Origin: Terriglobia bacterium
Lineage (GTDB): Bacteria; Acidobacteriota; Terriglobia; 20CM-2-55-15
Reading direction: 5' to 3'
DNA length: 36,943 nucleotides
NCBI GenBank assembly: GCA_036496425.1
Contig: DASXLG010000036.1
Span: 1 to 36,943 of the forward strand
Position numbers and translations under genes: made by a program. Below are positions 29,667 through 35,469 of the stretch, one piece after another. The stretch's first letter is position 1; each line of letters begins with the position of its first letter. The notes beneath the pieces are model-generated. The model worked only from the letters and a program-made list of their open reading frames with translations, had not been told where the DNA came from and searched no databases.

Positions 29667-32348
29667 ATGGTTAACCTGCTACGCCGGCTCGCATATTGGT
29701 TTCGCCAGCGCCGCGCCGATCGCGAGCTGGTGGAAGAAATCGAAACCCACCGGGTGCTCCGGCAAAAAGAGATCGAGAAATCCGGACTGTCTCCGGCCGA
29801 TGCGGAGCAGGCGAGCCGCCGCGCCATGGGCAACGTCCTGCTGGCGCGCGAGAATGCACGGAGCGCCTGGATTTCGTCGTGGCTGGATCAACTCTGGCAG
29901 GACATCCGATACGGCATACGGCAGCTCCGGAGCCATCCCGGTTTCACATGCATAGCCGTGGCGACCCTGGCGATCGGAATCGGAGCGAACACCGCTGTCT
30001 TTACGATCGTCAACGGCGTTCTGCTGGAATCGCTGCCGTACAAGCACCCGGAGCAGCTCGTGATGATGTTCGAACGGCTTCCAGGCTGGCCGGAGAAGTT
30101 CGGTTTCTCACCGCCGGATTTCGAACTCATCCGGCGCGAGTCGCGTTCTTTCTCGGGAATGGCGGCCTATCGAACCGCCTCTTACGAATTGGCCGGCATC
30201 GCCCAGCCGCAACGCCTTAGCGGAGTGCGCGTATCGTCCGAACTATTTTCAGTCATCGGTGTCGAGCCCTTCATCGGACGGCCGATCACATCCGATGAGG
30301 ACCGGCAGCAGGCTCATGTCGTCGAAATCAGTTATGGGCTGTGGTCTCGAGAGTTCGGCCGGGATTCTTCGATCATTGGAAGAACGATCCAGCTGGATCG
30401 CGAACCGTATGTGATCATCGGCGTTATGCCAAGGTCGTTCGATTTTCCTTCTCGTGGGCCGAAGATCAACGGGGACCCTGCGGATGTATTCCTTCCGATA
30501 TCGTTTTCGCAGGAGGATCGCGAAGCCTGGGGCATGCGGTACAACAACACGGTGGTCGCGCGCCTGGGACCGGGAGTGACATTAGATCAAGCACGCGCGG
30601 AAATCGCGAGCCTCGTGAAGCCGCTTATTCAACACTATCCGGCGATGATTTCCGGCTTCATCACAGGCTTGGCGATCCCCGTGATTCCCTTCGACGAGGA
30701 AGTCGTCGGCACGAGCCGGCGAATGCTGCTGATGTTAACCGCCGCCGTGGCGATGGTGCTTCTGATCGGCTGCGCCGATGTGGCCAACCTGATACTGACG
30801 CGGTCGAGCTCCAGGCAACGCGAGATGGCGATCCGGTCATCGCTCGGAGCCGGCCCAACGCGGATTTTTCGCCAGCTCCTCACCGAAGGACTGACGCTGG
30901 CGGCAGCGGGAGGAGCGCTGGCGCTGCTTCTGGCATACGGCTCGAAACGGCTTCTTCTTGCTTTCGCAGGACAGACGCTGCCGCGGGCGGAATCAATCAG
31001 CCTCAATTACCGCGTCGCCGGTTTTACCGCTCTGATCTCGCTGCTGACTCCGCTGATTTTCGCTGTCCTGCCCGCCTTTCGCGCCGCGCGGTTCTCTGAT
31101 GGCGATGCGTTGAAGCAGAGCACCCGAAACTCGACTCCCGGTCAGGGCCGCAGCCGCCTGCTGGGGATATTTCTCGTCGCACAAGTCGCGCTGGCGCTCA
31201 TACTTTCGATCGGCGCCGGGCTGCTCGTTCGCAGTTTCACGCGGCTGATGAGCACAGAACCCGGCTTTCGACCGGAGCAGGTCATCCACATCGCCATCAC
31301 TCTCCCCTCCGGCAGCTATGCGACGGGCCAGGCGATCAAATCGTTTTATCGTGAGGCCGTCGAAACCATGCAGCGGATTCCCGGCGTGAGCACCGCCGGA
31401 GCCGGCACGGATCTTCCACTGAGCGTTCGTGACCGGCGCACGTTCACTGGCGAAGGAACGACACGGCAGATTCCGGCATCAAGCCGGACGATTGCGACGA
31501 CCTGGGCTTCCGCCGGTTACCTCGAAACCCTGGGCATTCCGATCAAGCGGGGCCGCTCTTTGACGGATGCGGATACCCAGAGCAGTCCGCCGGTAGTCAT
31601 CATCAACGAGGCTGTCGCGCAGATGCTCTGGCCGGGCACGGATCCAGTCGGACATCGCATGAAATGGGGGATCGATGCCTCGGAGACGCCATGGATGACC
31701 ATTATCGGAGTGGCAGGCGATGTAAAACAGAGTACGCTGGACGTTCCCACCATCCCGCAGGCGTATGTGCCGGCATTCCAGGAGGGTGACGCTGCTTTCA
31801 CCGGCTTCAATCGAACCGTGCATGTCGTTGTTCGATCGAGCCGCGATGCCGATTCGCTGATCCCGGAGCTGCGCACCTCCATCCGCCAGATGGATCCGGA
31901 ACTTCCGGTAAAAGCACAGACGCTCACAGACGTGATCGGCGCATCGCTGCAGCCGCAGCGGTTCAGCATGAGCATCGTCATGCTCTTTGCTGTAATCGCA
32001 CTCGGCCTTTCCGCGATCGGAATTTACGGAGTTCTGTCGAATATCGTCAGCCAGCAGACGCAGGAGATCGGCGTCCGCATCGCTCTTGGAGCAACTGCTG
32101 GCAGCGTCATCTGGATAGTGCTTCGCCGGGCTCTGAAATTCATGACGATAGGCTTGGGGATCGGAATCATTGGAGCCTACGGCCTGACGCGACTGATGGC
32201 CGGCCTGCTTTATGAAGTCAGCCCCACGGACGCTGTCGCTTTTTTGGGAGCCGCAGTGGCCCTGACCCTTCTCGCGGTCGCGGCAAGCCTGGTGCCGGCA
32301 TGGCGAGCAGCAAGGATCGACCCGCTCACCGCGCTGAAGTTGGAATGA
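29667..32348 (+). CDS. ADOP-type duplicated ABC permease (MacB/FtsX fold)
   Basis: An 893-residue membrane protein. The N-terminal region (about 1-85) has the ADOP start with LADRELVEEIE-like helices. The first membrane helix (about 93-118, AVATLAIGIGANTAVFTIVNGVLL) is followed by a large MacB-like periplasmic domain (about 120-345), an FtsX core (about 350-470), a second periplasmic domain and a final FtsX core (about 770-890, ending AARIDPLTALKLE). Such orphan permeases are encoded without an ATPase gene, as here. AGGA lies about 8 nt before ATG 29667. It is co-transcribed with padR. A role in export or envelope signalling is likely; the substrate is unknown. Confidence 0.93.
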   Translation: MVNLLRRLAYWFRQRRADRELVEEIETHRVLRQKEIEKSGLSPADAEQASRRAMGNVLLARENARSAWISSWLDQLWQDIRYGIRQLRSHPGFTCIAVATLAIGIGANTAVFTIVNGVLLESLPYKHPEQLVMMFERLPGWPEKFGFSPPDFELIRRESRSFSGMAAYRTASYELAGIAQPQRLSGVRVSSELFSVIGVEPFIGRPITSDEDRQQAHVVEISYGLWSREFGRDSSIIGRTIQLDREPYVIIGVMPRSFDFPSRGPKINGDPADVFLPISFSQEDREAWGMRYNNTVVARLGPGVTLDQARAEIASLVKPLIQHYPAMISGFITGLAIPVIPFDEEVVGTSRRMLLMLTAAVAMVLLIGCADVANLILTRSSSRQREMAIRSSLGAGPTRIFRQLLTEGLTLAAAGGALALLLAYGSKRLLLAFAGQTLPRAESISLNYRVAGFTALISLLTPLIFAVLPAFRAARFSDGDALKQSTRNSTPGQGRSRLLGIFLVAQVALALILSIGAGLLVRSFTRLMSTEPGFRPEQVIHIAITLPSGSYATGQAIKSFYREAVETMQRIPGVSTAGAGTDLPLSVRDRRTFTGEGTTRQIPASSRTIATTWASAGYLETLGIPIKRGRSLTDADTQSSPPVVIINEAVAQMLWPGTDPVGHRMKWGIDASETPWMTIIGVAGDVKQSTLDVPTIPQAYVPAFQEGDAAFTGFNRTVHVVVRSSRDADSLIPELRTSIRQMDPELPVKAQTLTDVIGASLQPQRFSMSIVMLFAVIALGLSAIGIYGVLSNIVSQQTQEIGVRIALGATAGSVIWIVLRRALKFMTIGLGIGIIGAYGLTRLMAGLLYEVSPTDAVAFLGAAVALTLLAVAASLVPAWRAARIDPLTALKLE

Positions 32349-32362
32349 CGAGAAGGGAGAAA

Positions 32363-32419
32363 CCACAAGAAGCACAAGAAAAGAATTGGCGACTTCTGTG
32401 CCTCTTGTGCTTTTTGTGG
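32363..32419. repeat. Inverted repeat of the CACAAGAAGCACA family between convergent genes
   Basis: Arms at 32363-32379 and 32403-32419 pair over 17 nt with one mismatch (CCACAAGAAGCACAAGA against its complement). The stem lies 15 nt after the ADOP stop and about 30 nt before the end of the convergent barrel gene, so it may act as a two-way terminator. The same core sequence recurs in the larger inverted repeat at 33927-34011 on the other side of the barrel gene. Confidence 0.6.
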
Positions 32420-32448
32420 GCCCTCCCCACTTCGCAGACCTTGGGGCT

Positions 32449-33906
32449 TCAGAATCGGTTTTTGCCGTTGTCCTTGAAGTTCACCGCAAAGTAGGAATAG
32501 TTGAAGTTGGGTCCGGACGTCGTGTGGGCCAGGAACGAGCCGGGCATCAGATGTCCCACTCCGGCGCCGACGTTGACGTGACCGTTCAACTCGTACCAGC
32601 TGTAAACATCGCACTCTTCGCCGATGTGCGTTCCCGATCTGCCCGTTGCATCGCGAACGATCAAACCGCCGGACGTGTTGTAAAGGCCGTCGCTGGCTGT
32701 TGCCAGCGAAAAGTTGATGTATTGCGCCGTCAGAGTCCAGCGATGATGCGGCTCAACCGTAATGCCGCCGCGAGAGGCGGAAATATTCTGCCAGCCAAAC
32801 TGATCCGTGATCCCGAATCGATCGTGGGCCGTGGGATACATCGTGTCGAAAGTGCCATGAATCCCATCCGTGGAGTGGCTGTCCCCCGCAGCAAAATCGT
32901 ATTGCGTGAACAAACGCGGCTGCCCACGCAGGCTTTCGAATCTATATGCAACCCCGATGGTCGACGCCCACGCGTGAATCGCATTGGGACCGTCCGAACC
33001 GCGTTCGGCAATTGCTTCCGCCGAGTAATCCAGCATCCCTTTTGCTTTTCCCTTCAGGCGGACTCCGTAAGCTCTTTCGTTTTGTTTACCGTTCCTGCTC
33101 GCTGCGGCTTCCAGGGCAACGCTCGGCTGCGTACGCCATAGAACAAAGGGCTCGAGCACCGCGCCGGAAAATACATCATTGACGTAACCGTACGCCCCGT
33201 AAACGTCATTGCCTTTTTCGTGGCGGCTGATTCCGAAATCCCGTGTGATGACTGCCGATGCAGCAAATAGCCCTAACCGGTACCGCCTGTAATGAAGATT
33301 GCCGGCGACGGCATCGTAGGAACGTCCCTGATCGCGCCATTCCGAATTGGCAATGATCGTGTTGTTGTAATTGATCAGTTGCCTGCCGGCGCGCACGCTG
33401 AACCATTGCTTCTCGGGATCGCCGGCCTGCACATACGCGAGCTTCAAGTCCCATGTGTTTTCATTTGGCGGGCCGATCGGCGGATTTTCCGAGATCGGCC
33501 GGGCATCCTGGACCTGAGACACGATTTTCAGCCAATTGGTGGGCTGCAGATCCATCTGATACCGGAACCTGTTCAAAGAGTAGCCGTCGTCACTGCCCGA
33601 TTTGAAATTGGCGTCGTGGTTGTTCTCGTATCGAAGACGTTCTTCCGCCCCAAAACCGATCCACTTCGGCAGATGACGATTGAGCAGGCTTGCGGGATCG
33701 AAATTCCGGAAGTCGTAGGGTTCCACCGAACCGAATGTGCGGTACGCGGGCCCATTCAGAAAACTCAGAGGGTTCGACGCCGGACCGGTGATGAACGCGC
33801 CTCCAGCTGCGCTGGAGGCGTTCTGGGTGGTGACGTCATCCTGAGCGGCGAGCGGGACTGTAAAAATAAAAACAGATAAAACAACGAACAGTAGACTACG
33901 AAACAT
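32449..33906 (-). CDS. Alginate-export-like outer-membrane beta-barrel protein
   Basis: A 485-residue protein with a signal peptide (about 1-22, cleavage after PLAAQ). The mature part is rich in alternating aromatic and polar residues (RLRYENNHDANF, WFSVRAGRQLINYNNTII) and ends with F, as expected for an outer-membrane barrel. The RAGRQ...YNNTII stretch and the overall length match AlgE-type alginate-export proteins. It stands alone: no alginate synthesis gene is near, so it is better read as a porin of that fold. It is flanked on both sides by inverted repeats with the same core. Confidence 0.85.
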   Translation of the reverse strand: MFRSLLFVVLSVFIFTVPLAAQDDVTTQNASSAAGGAFITGPASNPLSFLNGPAYRTFGSVEPYDFRNFDPASLLNRHLPKWIGFGAEERLRYENNHDANFKSGSDDGYSLNRFRYQMDLQPTNWLKIVSQVQDARPISENPPIGPPNENTWDLKLAYVQAGDPEKQWFSVRAGRQLINYNNTIIANSEWRDQGRSYDAVAGNLHYRRYRLGLFAASAVITRDFGISRHEKGNDVYGAYGYVNDVFSGAVLEPFVLWRTQPSVALEAAASRNGKQNERAYGVRLKGKAKGMLDYSAEAIAERGSDGPNAIHAWASTIGVAYRFESLRGQPRLFTQYDFAAGDSHSTDGIHGTFDTMYPTAHDRFGITDQFGWQNISASRGGITVEPHHRWTLTAQYINFSLATASDGLYNTSGGLIVRDATGRSGTHIGEECDVYSWYELNGHVNVGAGVGHLMPGSFLAHTTSGPNFNYSYFAVNFKDNGKNRF

Positions 33907-33926
33907 CCGTTGTAGCTTAACGGGAA

Positions 33927-34011
33927 ACGGAACACAAAAGGCACAAGAAGCACAGGAAATCGGGGTTCAAAAACCGATTTTCTTGTGCTTCTTGTGCCTC
34001 TTGTGTTCCGT
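33927..34011. repeat. 85-nt inverted repeat of the CACAAGAAGCACA family
   Basis: Arms of 37 and 38 nt (33927-33963 and 33974-34011) pair with about two mismatches and one indel across a 10-nt loop. The arms contain GGAACACAA, AGGCACAAGAAGCACA and ATCGG. The stem fills the gap between the DUF3300 gene stop (34026) and the start of the barrel gene (33906), so it is probably in the 3' end of one message and the leader of the next. Its size is far above a normal terminator and its core recurs at 32363-32419. Confidence 0.75.
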
Positions 34012-34025
34012 TCCTTATCTAACTG

Positions 34026-35429
34026 TTATCGTCGGCCTCCACCGCCACCGTGCGATCCGCCACCATGTGATCCGCCACTACTGTGCGATCCGCCGCCGCC
34101 GTGGGATGAGAAGGATCCACCGCCGCCGCGAGAAACCGACGGAGCTGCCGAGCGTGCCATCGGCGCGCTGGACCGAGCTTGAGGTGCAAACGATCGAGCC
34201 TGCGGAGCGTTAGATCGTGCCTGCGGAGCATAGGACTGTGAAGGCGCCGCATACGAACGGTACCCGTTGCCCGGATTCCGCGACCGAGTGGCAGCGAAGG
34301 AATTCCTATTCGCGAAGCCTTGCGCCGTGGACCGGTTGGCAAACGACTGCCGCGGCGCGGCGCTCGGCATCGATGCGCGAGGAGATGCGGCAAAGCTGCG
34401 CGCCATCGGAGCTGCGCTACGCACGCCCGCCGTTCTCGGAGCTGCTATCCCAGCCTGACGGGCCGCCGGAGCGAATCGTTGAGCCACTGCATGATTCGAA
34501 TAAGGAACTCCCTGTCGATGGAATACATCGTGAGACCAAACCGACGTTCCCCTGAAGCCCGCAACGCGTGAGTTGAAGTTGAACCGGTTGGTAAACCCGT
34601 GGTTCACAAAGATCGTACGGCTGCCCCATCCCGGATGCCAGCCCCAGGCTCCCCAGCCACCCCAACCGACGCCGAAGAAACCGCCGATTCCGATACCGGC
34701 GCCGAAGAACAGTCCTGCGCTGAGCGGCGGATAGTACCAGGACGGGTACGGATAGTAGATCGGCGGGCCCCAGACGTACGCCGGATCATAAGACGGCACG
34801 TAGATAACGTCCGGATTTGCCGGCACAATCTGAACGACCGGCTGACCCGCGTCCGTCGTATTGATCACCTGCTGCTGCGGTGTTGAAGCAAGTTTTCCCG
34901 ACTGTTCCGCGGACACCCTCAGACGTTGAATGGCGCCCATGACGTCCGCCTGCTGATTCAAGAAAGCATTTCCGAGAGCGGTAGTCCAGGAAACGTCTTC
35001 GTTCAGCCGCTTCAGAACGTCCGGAAACATCACCAGCGCCTGGACGCTCGGATCCCAATTCTGAGAGGCGGCGGCCTGAGTCAGCGCCTGCCCCGACAAT
35101 TCGGGATGCTGCTGGAGCCACTGATTCGCTTCAACAACCTCAAGAGGGTAAGTCGACGCGACCAGGATCTGGCTGATCAGGGGATCGGGATAGAGCGCCA
35201 GAGGCGCAACTAATCCATCCATCTGATTGGGCGCGAGAACCTGCTGGTTCGCGGCCGGCACAGGAATCGGCTGGCCGGGAACCTGCTGTGCGGGAAACGG
35301 CTGCCCCGCCTCAGGTACAGGAATCGGCAGCGGAGCCTGCGAAAAACCCACTGCGGGTATAGACACCAACCCCAGCATGCAGATCCCTGCTACTGCTTGG
35401 CGAACATATTTCGTTATTTTTTCTCTCAT
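34026..35429 (-). CDS. DUF3300 secreted protein with low-complexity tail
   Basis: A 467-residue protein. A signal peptide (cleavage near VGFSQA, about residue 32) is followed by a Pro/Gln-rich linker and a DUF3300 domain (about 65-220), recognisable from MDGLVAPLALYPDPLISQILVASTYPLEVVEA and VIYVPSYDPAYVWGPP. A Tyr/Pro-rich and Gly/Trp-rich stretch follows. The last 130 residues are Ser/Ala/Arg-rich with repeated APQARS units and end in a Gly/Ser/His tract. I chose ATG 35429, preceded by GGGGGA about 5 nt away; a GTG ten codons earlier is possible. The function of DUF3300 is unknown. It lies 40 nt after the PEGA-like gene and is probably co-transcribed with it. Confidence 0.88.
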   Translation of the reverse strand: MREKITKYVRQAVAGICMLGLVSIPAVGFSQAPLPIPVPEAGQPFPAQQVPGQPIPVPAANQQVLAPNQMDGLVAPLALYPDPLISQILVASTYPLEVVEANQWLQQHPELSGQALTQAAASQNWDPSVQALVMFPDVLKRLNEDVSWTTALGNAFLNQQADVMGAIQRLRVSAEQSGKLASTPQQQVINTTDAGQPVVQIVPANPDVIYVPSYDPAYVWGPPIYYPYPSWYYPPLSAGLFFGAGIGIGGFFGVGWGGWGAWGWHPGWGSRTIFVNHGFTNRFNFNSRVAGFRGTSVWSHDVFHRQGVPYSNHAVAQRFAPAARQAGIAAPRTAGVRSAAPMARSFAASPRASMPSAAPRQSFANRSTAQGFANRNSFAATRSRNPGNGYRSYAAPSQSYAPQARSNAPQARSFAPQARSSAPMARSAAPSVSRGGGGSFSSHGGGGSHSSGGSHGGGSHGGGGGRR

Positions 35430-35469
35430 TGAATCCCCCGTTCCAGGAAACCTTGCCACTCACTTACCC

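Follow-up and report, generated by a model that had tools for sequence, protein, structure and literature searches.

Two hairpins around an alginate-export-like gene belong to a dispersed family of REP-like palindromes placed mostly behind stop codons

An outer-membrane barrel gene enclosed by two inverted repeats of the same family raises the question of whether the repeats once moved the gene or belong instead to the genes on either side of it. We examined this in the window, that is, the whole 36,943-nt stretch of Terriglobia DNA analyzed here (contig DASXLG010000036.1 of assembly GCA_036496425.1; contig C36 of genome G000 below). The alginate-export-like barrel is encoded on the minus strand at 32449–33906 (Alginate_exp PF13372, 192 bits), between an ADOP-family duplicated permease on the plus strand (29667–32348; TIGR03434, MacB_PCD/FtsX) and a DUF3300 protein on the minus strand (34026–35459; PF11737). 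Stem 1 (32355–32427) fills the convergent gap in which the permease and barrel stops face each other, 6 nt past the former (32348) and 21 nt from the latter (32449), and stem 2 (33926–34012) lies 13 nt past the DUF3300 stop (34026), which faces it, and 19 nt ahead of the barrel start (33906). Their placement about the barrel gene is thus asymmetric, and because one adjoins the permease stop and the other the DUF3300 stop, both can be explained as 3'-end hairpins of the neighboring genes.

That two stems of one family surround the barrel gene, as the original prediction held, is borne out by inverted-repeat search and by folding, at about the places given and with an exact copy of CACAAGAAGCACA in each. 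The ungapped search pairs 34-nt arms in stem 2 (33926–33959 and 33979–34012; 94% complementary, spacer 19 nt) and 25-nt arms in stem 1 (32355–32379 and 32403–32427; 84% complementary, spacer 23 nt); at those settings the whole window holds four inverted repeats, the two besides the stems being 73% and 76% complementary. The plus-strand folding energy is -65.5 kcal/mol for stem 2 (shuffles average -22.7; z -13.6) and -40.3 kcal/mol for stem 1 (shuffles average -19.3; z -6.7), with minus-strand z values of -12.2 and -5.5, respectively; for both stems and both strands, none of 200 shuffles folded as well as the stem itself.

The two stems are far from alone. The core CACAAGAAGCACA, with at most one mismatch, occurs at 320 sites (160 + 160) in the 6,164,651 bases and 407 contigs of the genome, as compared with eight for the reversed pattern. 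Our detailed survey covered 80 fetched stretches plus the window (795,406 bases), in which 117 seed clusters reduced to 102 family sites, 67 of them full hairpins and 35 single arms; because, at one mismatch, 99 hits came from the reversed seed pattern as compared with 323 from the seed itself, lone approximate seeds were left out, and only clusters with an exact seed, or with two or more seeds, counted as sites. The G000 stretches were picked around known copies, which inflates densities there; some of those from the relatives G002 and G005 were picked by core hits. A covariance model built from 12 copies (R1) recovers stem 1 at 32354–32431 and stem 2 at 33923–34018, and its matches listed outside the fetched stretches add 13 sites, bringing the family to at least 115. 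Only 11 of the 102 sites, and three of the 67 full hairpins, fall inside called genes, some of them perhaps through errors of the simple gene caller; of the other full copies, 41 lie between tandem genes, 19 in convergent gaps, two in divergent gaps and two at segment edges. Among the single arms, four of 35 sit at contig ends (the starts of C192, C259 and C260 and the end of C251), and since these contigs terminate within a family arm, the repeats probably broke the assembly. An exact-sequence literature search for the unit sequences, outside which most subscription journals lie, returned only matches that by their titles concern unrelated subjects.

These numbers bear directly on the suggestion that an element acting on the two repeats moves the barrel gene as a cassette. 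In its favor are the enclosure of the gene by two copies and the lack of conservation of its neighbors in the loci L036–L039, which carry barrel orthologs of 60–67% identity. However, a family of more than 100 copies, most of them just after stop codons and many at the ends of unrelated genes, does not mark a mobile cassette. In the fetched segments, three of 14 successive pairs of full copies enclose a single gene, and simple arithmetic on density (67 copies x 115 sites / 5494 genes) predicts about 1.4, so there is no clear excess. Nor was any family seed present in the flanking DNA examined at L036–L039, where the gene order of the window is not kept except for a 35%-identical ADOP match at L036 and a homolog of the 29328–29654 gene at L037; a further locus, L040, contains a single seed. 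Named relatives of the barrel come from Bryobacteraceae, Bryobacterales, Acidobacteriia and Terriglobia metagenome-assembled genomes. The surroundings of the barrel are variable, and nothing connects this variability to the hairpins. Given the copy number, the dispersal, the count of single-gene pairs and the seedless orthologs, we reject the cassette as scarcely credible: paired repeats around one gene need not imply one.

What the copies do share is their position behind stop codons. Full copies are faced by 78 gene ends (limits -60 to 120 nt), and the core begins 7–20 nt from the stop in 56 of them. Between genes of the same direction, the distance to the upstream stop is at most 20 nt for 28 of 34 family palindromes, against a mean of 18.3 and a maximum of 27 in 2000 trials of uniform placement within those gaps; five sibling genomes show the same tendency, with 39 of 61 palindromes this close (null mean 25.4, maximum 35). 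The preference did not exceed the null maximum among palindromes built of other tandem words (15 of 22; maximum 15) or in a GC-rich, GTAG-like group (seven of 14; maximum 9). According to the excerpted text of PMC1590033, bacterial stem-loops generally favor gene 3' ends, and placement alone therefore neither demonstrates function nor is new.

Could the family then be one of strong, bidirectional intrinsic terminators, kept for termination alone, in which a good terminator has been copied? The resemblance to Rho-independent terminators lies in a hairpin after the stop codon followed by T enrichment: T frequency is 0.45–0.58 at 11–15 nt past the core and about 0.23 farther out. The stem base GGGGAAGG is GC-rich, and the 19 copies in convergent gaps can be set against 107 convergent pairs among 637 gene pairs. 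Against this, the family stem of 20–40 bp mostly lacks a run of five T, such runs occurring within 25 nt at only nine of 69 gene ends, and a consensus terminator scan called neither window stem. Copies are also found between closely spaced genes of one direction (prfB-recG, for example), an arrangement in which complete termination would silence the next gene; single arms exist; and in another palindrome family of this genome, that of the CGCAGATGA words, the 5' ends are rich in T and the 3' ends in A. The earlier suggestion of strong terminators of a shared family is thus supported in part, and termination as the sole reason for the family seems to us unlikely, though far from implausible.

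The hairpins are not peculiar to this genome, and the idea that its relatives lack them was overturned by covariance-model matches in genomes of the same genus. Allowing no more than one mismatch, the exact 15-mer is present 216 times in this genome and 2, 13, 0, 11 and 13 times in the same-genus genomes G001–G005, yet at least 101–140 R1 matches are listed in four of these five, and one in G001, which indicates that the genus carries the hairpin in dialects such as GCCACAAAAAGGCACAAAATTCACAAA. In further genomes, five R1 matches are listed in G006, none in G008, at least 128 in G038, 63 in G050 and at least 128 in G294; all these counts, drawn from at most 150 scored candidates per genome, include a palindrome on each of its strands, and some low-scoring matches could be hairpins of another kind. 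A degenerate pattern of 9-nt period is found in 13 of 297 genomes of the phylum, at 114 sites here, 58 in G130, 34 in G294, 27 in G242, 26 in G312 and 10 in G097 (where the reversed control gave four), with 1 to 4 in the others. G097, G130, G242 and G312 belong to one distant genus and have CACAAAGAA-type words, and G294 has CACAAGGGA-type words. Judged from these comparisons of sequence, what appears confined to this genome is the exact word and not the hairpin.

A search blind to the family (ungapped score of at least 17, loop of up to 70) returned 110 palindromes in the G000 stretches and 12, 33, 12, 32 and 13 in 199, 285, 193, 394 and 183 kb of G001–G005, with none in 60 kb of G050 and none in first-order resamples, for which G000 was represented by a subset. 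Several groups of these palindromes are built of other near-tandem words (CGCAGATGA, GAAGCCA, GGATTTC, CAATGAC and ATTGGATC), and others resemble, by eye, GTAG-REPs or transposase-linked repeats. Three AGCCAGA units with at most one mismatch occur in six of 149 phylum genomes, at eight sites in G166 and one or two in the others. Near-tandem 7-nt words also make up the cyanobacterial STRR and the heptamer hairpins of the tRNA-Leu intron P6b. The TAACTGA heptamers of Beggiatoaceae, as the consulted portion of PMC4679880 describes them, are likewise near-tandem 7-nt words in intergenic DNA that recur in distant lineages, but they form direct repeats mainly ahead of start codons rather than palindromes after stops.

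The gene ends themselves can be compared across species. Among 639 reciprocal best pairs, 631 were usable (eight were dropped for short flanks), and counting as an end palindrome any that scored at least 16 and started within 40 nt of the stop, we found one at both ends of 25 pairs, at one end of 110 and at neither end of 496. This co-occurrence has a Fisher value of 5e-7, which is overstated because pairs share genes. Palindromes occur in at least two genomes for ten of 164 orthogroups when G000 is included, a weak excess over the 6.1 expected (73 of 2000 permutations), and for nine of 127 without the ascertained G000 (3.0 expected; one of 2000 permutations). The sequences at such ends differ: 22 of the 25 both-end pairs have no common 7-mer and three have three or more, and the CACAAGAAG hairpin is absent from all 25 sibling gene ends displayed for seven of eight queried proteins. 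At the end of ftsH, for example, CACAAGAGG words stand here, GAAGCCA words in G002, GGATTTC words in G001, and 58-nt arms with GAATTGA words in G005. Permissive sites could explain co-occurrence at orthologous ends as well as function could.

Some of these ends have gained DNA. Where neighbors are conserved and only one of two species has a palindrome, the gap in that species is longer by a median of 61.5 nt (quartiles -3 and 91; n = 64 comparisons, which share genes and are not independent), as compared with a median absolute gap difference of 17.5 where neither has one (n = 300). With gene names that are our reading of the sequences, the prfB-recG gap is 79 nt here and 3, 8 and 21 nt in relatives (although 111 and 206 nt in two relatives with no scored palindrome), that between lpdA and the next gene is 98 here and -4, -4 and 25 in relatives, and that at the end of an ipms-like gene is 87 here and -4 in a relative (with 116 in G003 as the exception). 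The ipms-like protein (L165) ends 9–12 residues earlier than L166, L168, L169 and L172, at the point where the hairpin begins; insertion of the hairpin may be the source of the new stop.

Each arm has two parts: a purine-rich head (GGGGAAGGAAC, GGGAAGAAACC, GGAACGGAAC, GATTAGCC or a variant) and, after it, near-tandem CACAARRRV words, about two to four of them, with a period of 9 nt; the opposite arm is its complement. Among the 57 family palindromes that have CACAA in the 5' arm, this arm is purine-rich without exception; the same holds for 37 of 40 other word-built palindromes, against 66 of 115 of the remainder. Over the outer 10 nt, agreement in the 66 motif-defined full copies is 0.727 between the paired arms of one copy and 0.531 between arms of different copies, and none of 5000 permutations reached the within-copy value; we used motif-defined copies since the same comparison on blind-found palindromes is biased by their selection as palindromes. 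Agreement fades 10–12 nt outside the core and holds within head subtypes (outer 0.698 versus 0.612, core 0.857 versus 0.813, each reached in none of 5000 permutations; three subtypes with at least six copies, 53 copies in total). Such agreement would follow if selection acted on pairing or if one arm had been copied from its partner. Loops behave differently: four of 1225 pairs among 50 loops share a word of at least 12 nt, where the longest shared word in 20 sets of shuffled loops is 11 nt, and one of the four pairs consists of a C161 copy and the window's stem 2. Some copies are thus true duplicates, yet arms are far more alike than loops. Among the single arms, many are intact with no detectable partner and a few have a decayed one.

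How such a family spreads is a separate matter, and non-autonomous elements of the REP or MITE type, mobilized by a RAYT or other HUH transposase, would account for its high copy number, its species-specific expansion and the copies gained at empty sites. There is one Y1_Tnp match in this genome, and PF01797 (Y1_Tnp) has eight matches in G294, which has a related expansion. However, the match here scores 52 bits, below the NCBIfam RAYT cut-off of 80, and the gene is flanked by a different inverted repeat, found at 41 sites; no PF01797 match occurs in G097, G130, G242 or G312, all of which have CACAAAGAA expansions. Counted in the 25 nt beyond the core at the two arm edges of 65 copies (130 edges in all), the GTAG/CGTC tag is not enriched (GTAG 12, CTAC 3, CGTC 2 and GACG 14, with about 11 of each expected), and the same number of copies shows no excess of flanking direct repeats such as the target-site duplications of MITEs (longest match 4.05 on average against 4.16 permuted, 253 of 300 permutations being as high), although the fuzzy edges of the element mean that short target duplications could be missed. 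RAYT mobilization is therefore unsupported, and mobilization by any such transposase is improbable. As REP/BIME elements (GTAG, CGTC) are described in the portion of PMC3733652 drawn on here, with a total REP length of 20–40 bp, the family resembles them in being a short, high-copy, extragenic palindrome, often close after stops, with lineage-specific expansions, but differs in having longer arms of near-tandem 9-nt words and neither the tag at one end nor a cognate RAYT. In placement the hairpin family is REP-like, and it stands outside the tagged, RAYT-linked REP families.

The occurrence of both single arms and inverted pairs of one word, with species dialects and pairs at 3' ends, also recalls DNA uptake sequences, in which single arms would aid uptake and inverted pairs would terminate, as in Neisseriaceae; the portion of PMC3630211 cited here describes a like pattern, a head-to-head word forming an intergenic stem-loop in species dialects. 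But the word here has a 9-nt period and is rare within genes (11 of 102 sites), and 320 core hits in 6.16 Mb are far from the hundreds to thousands of mainly single copies, many of them in genes, that mark uptake sequences, which leaves this reading very improbable.

The Y1 (HUH) transposase gene (L031:1279–2154) appears to belong to a repeat family of its own. It has inverted GGGGCGCACACCTGAATTC flanks at about 1343 and 2161, and GGGGCGCACACCTGAATTC with at most two mismatches occurs at 41 genome sites, the reversed pattern at none. Gene and repeat together fit a TIRYT-like element, a type whose TIR repeats are described, in the part of PMC3733652 used here, also for Acidobacteria. Those repeats share the phylum and a dispersed, palindromic nature with the hairpin family, and one such family is seemingly present in this genome; the GGGGCGCACACCTGAATTC repeat is unrelated in sequence to the hairpins, however, and flanks its own transposase gene.

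Taken together, we consider it probable, at about 0.7, that stems 1 and 2 belong to a lineage-specific set of REP-like 3'-end palindromes, most likely serving as terminators or 3' stabilizers, for whose spread no RAYT link was found. Rfam, at its gathering score, had no match in the whole window. The stems belong to a dispersed, non-coding palindrome family of at least 115 sites, whose full copies are predicted to form, as RNA, a hairpin of 20–40 bp at the 3' end of an mRNA. Such hairpins would likely act as REP elements or bidirectional terminators do, ending or pausing transcription and blocking 3' exonucleases, and termination or 3' protection is the likeliest role that we can predict for them; a hairpin very close to the stop may in addition slow ribosome release. 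At a few loci, a copy has been gained relative to species in which the orthologous genes are tightly spaced or overlap. Some orthologous ends have, in relatives, palindromes of other words, which suggests that a hairpin-bearing end may be kept, or recurrently refilled, while its sequence is replaced.

Two of these observations were unexpected: at some orthologous gene ends, the palindrome of a sister species is built of other words, and copies have their arms, not their loops, in common. We tentatively propose, as a speculative account of these features, that the palindromes are built of words independently of a transposase: one arm, made of near-tandem words of 7–9 nt, would settle after a stop, its partner would be copied in place by foldback template switching, and, with a word set particular to each species, palindromes would replace one another at conserved gene ends. 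Foldback copying in place would leave the arms of one copy matching while loops differ. Should this pattern hold up, there are gene ends in the genus at which a hairpin is retained or restored even as species-specific words take the place of its sequence. Such ends would form a natural series in which to study the origin and spread of extragenic palindromes with no evident transposase, and to ask whether hairpin function or the permissiveness of sites maintains them.

Several loci combine different repeats. On C7 (C7:3732, L001) and C153 (C153:23283), single arms of the CACAAGAAG family adjoin or surround palindromes built of other words (ATTGCATC or CGCAGATGA), and the same type of composite occurs at C173:7198–7299, C178:29304–29402 and C203:14304. 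Related words also turn up in contigs classed as viral, which we excluded from all counts: one stretch has CACAAGARG x2.5 (L269; one seed, no partner arm) and 18 have CACAAAGRR, with about 240 nt inspected in 18 of these 19 loci. In three of them (L271, L272 and L280), the CACAAAGRR words lie in stretches that seem, by eye and without gene calls, to be intergenic. Finally, a larger repeat with units like CGACAATCTCCTGGGACGGGTCCAAGCAC, both tandem and inverted, is present at C367:26396, C178:33208 and C198:42241.
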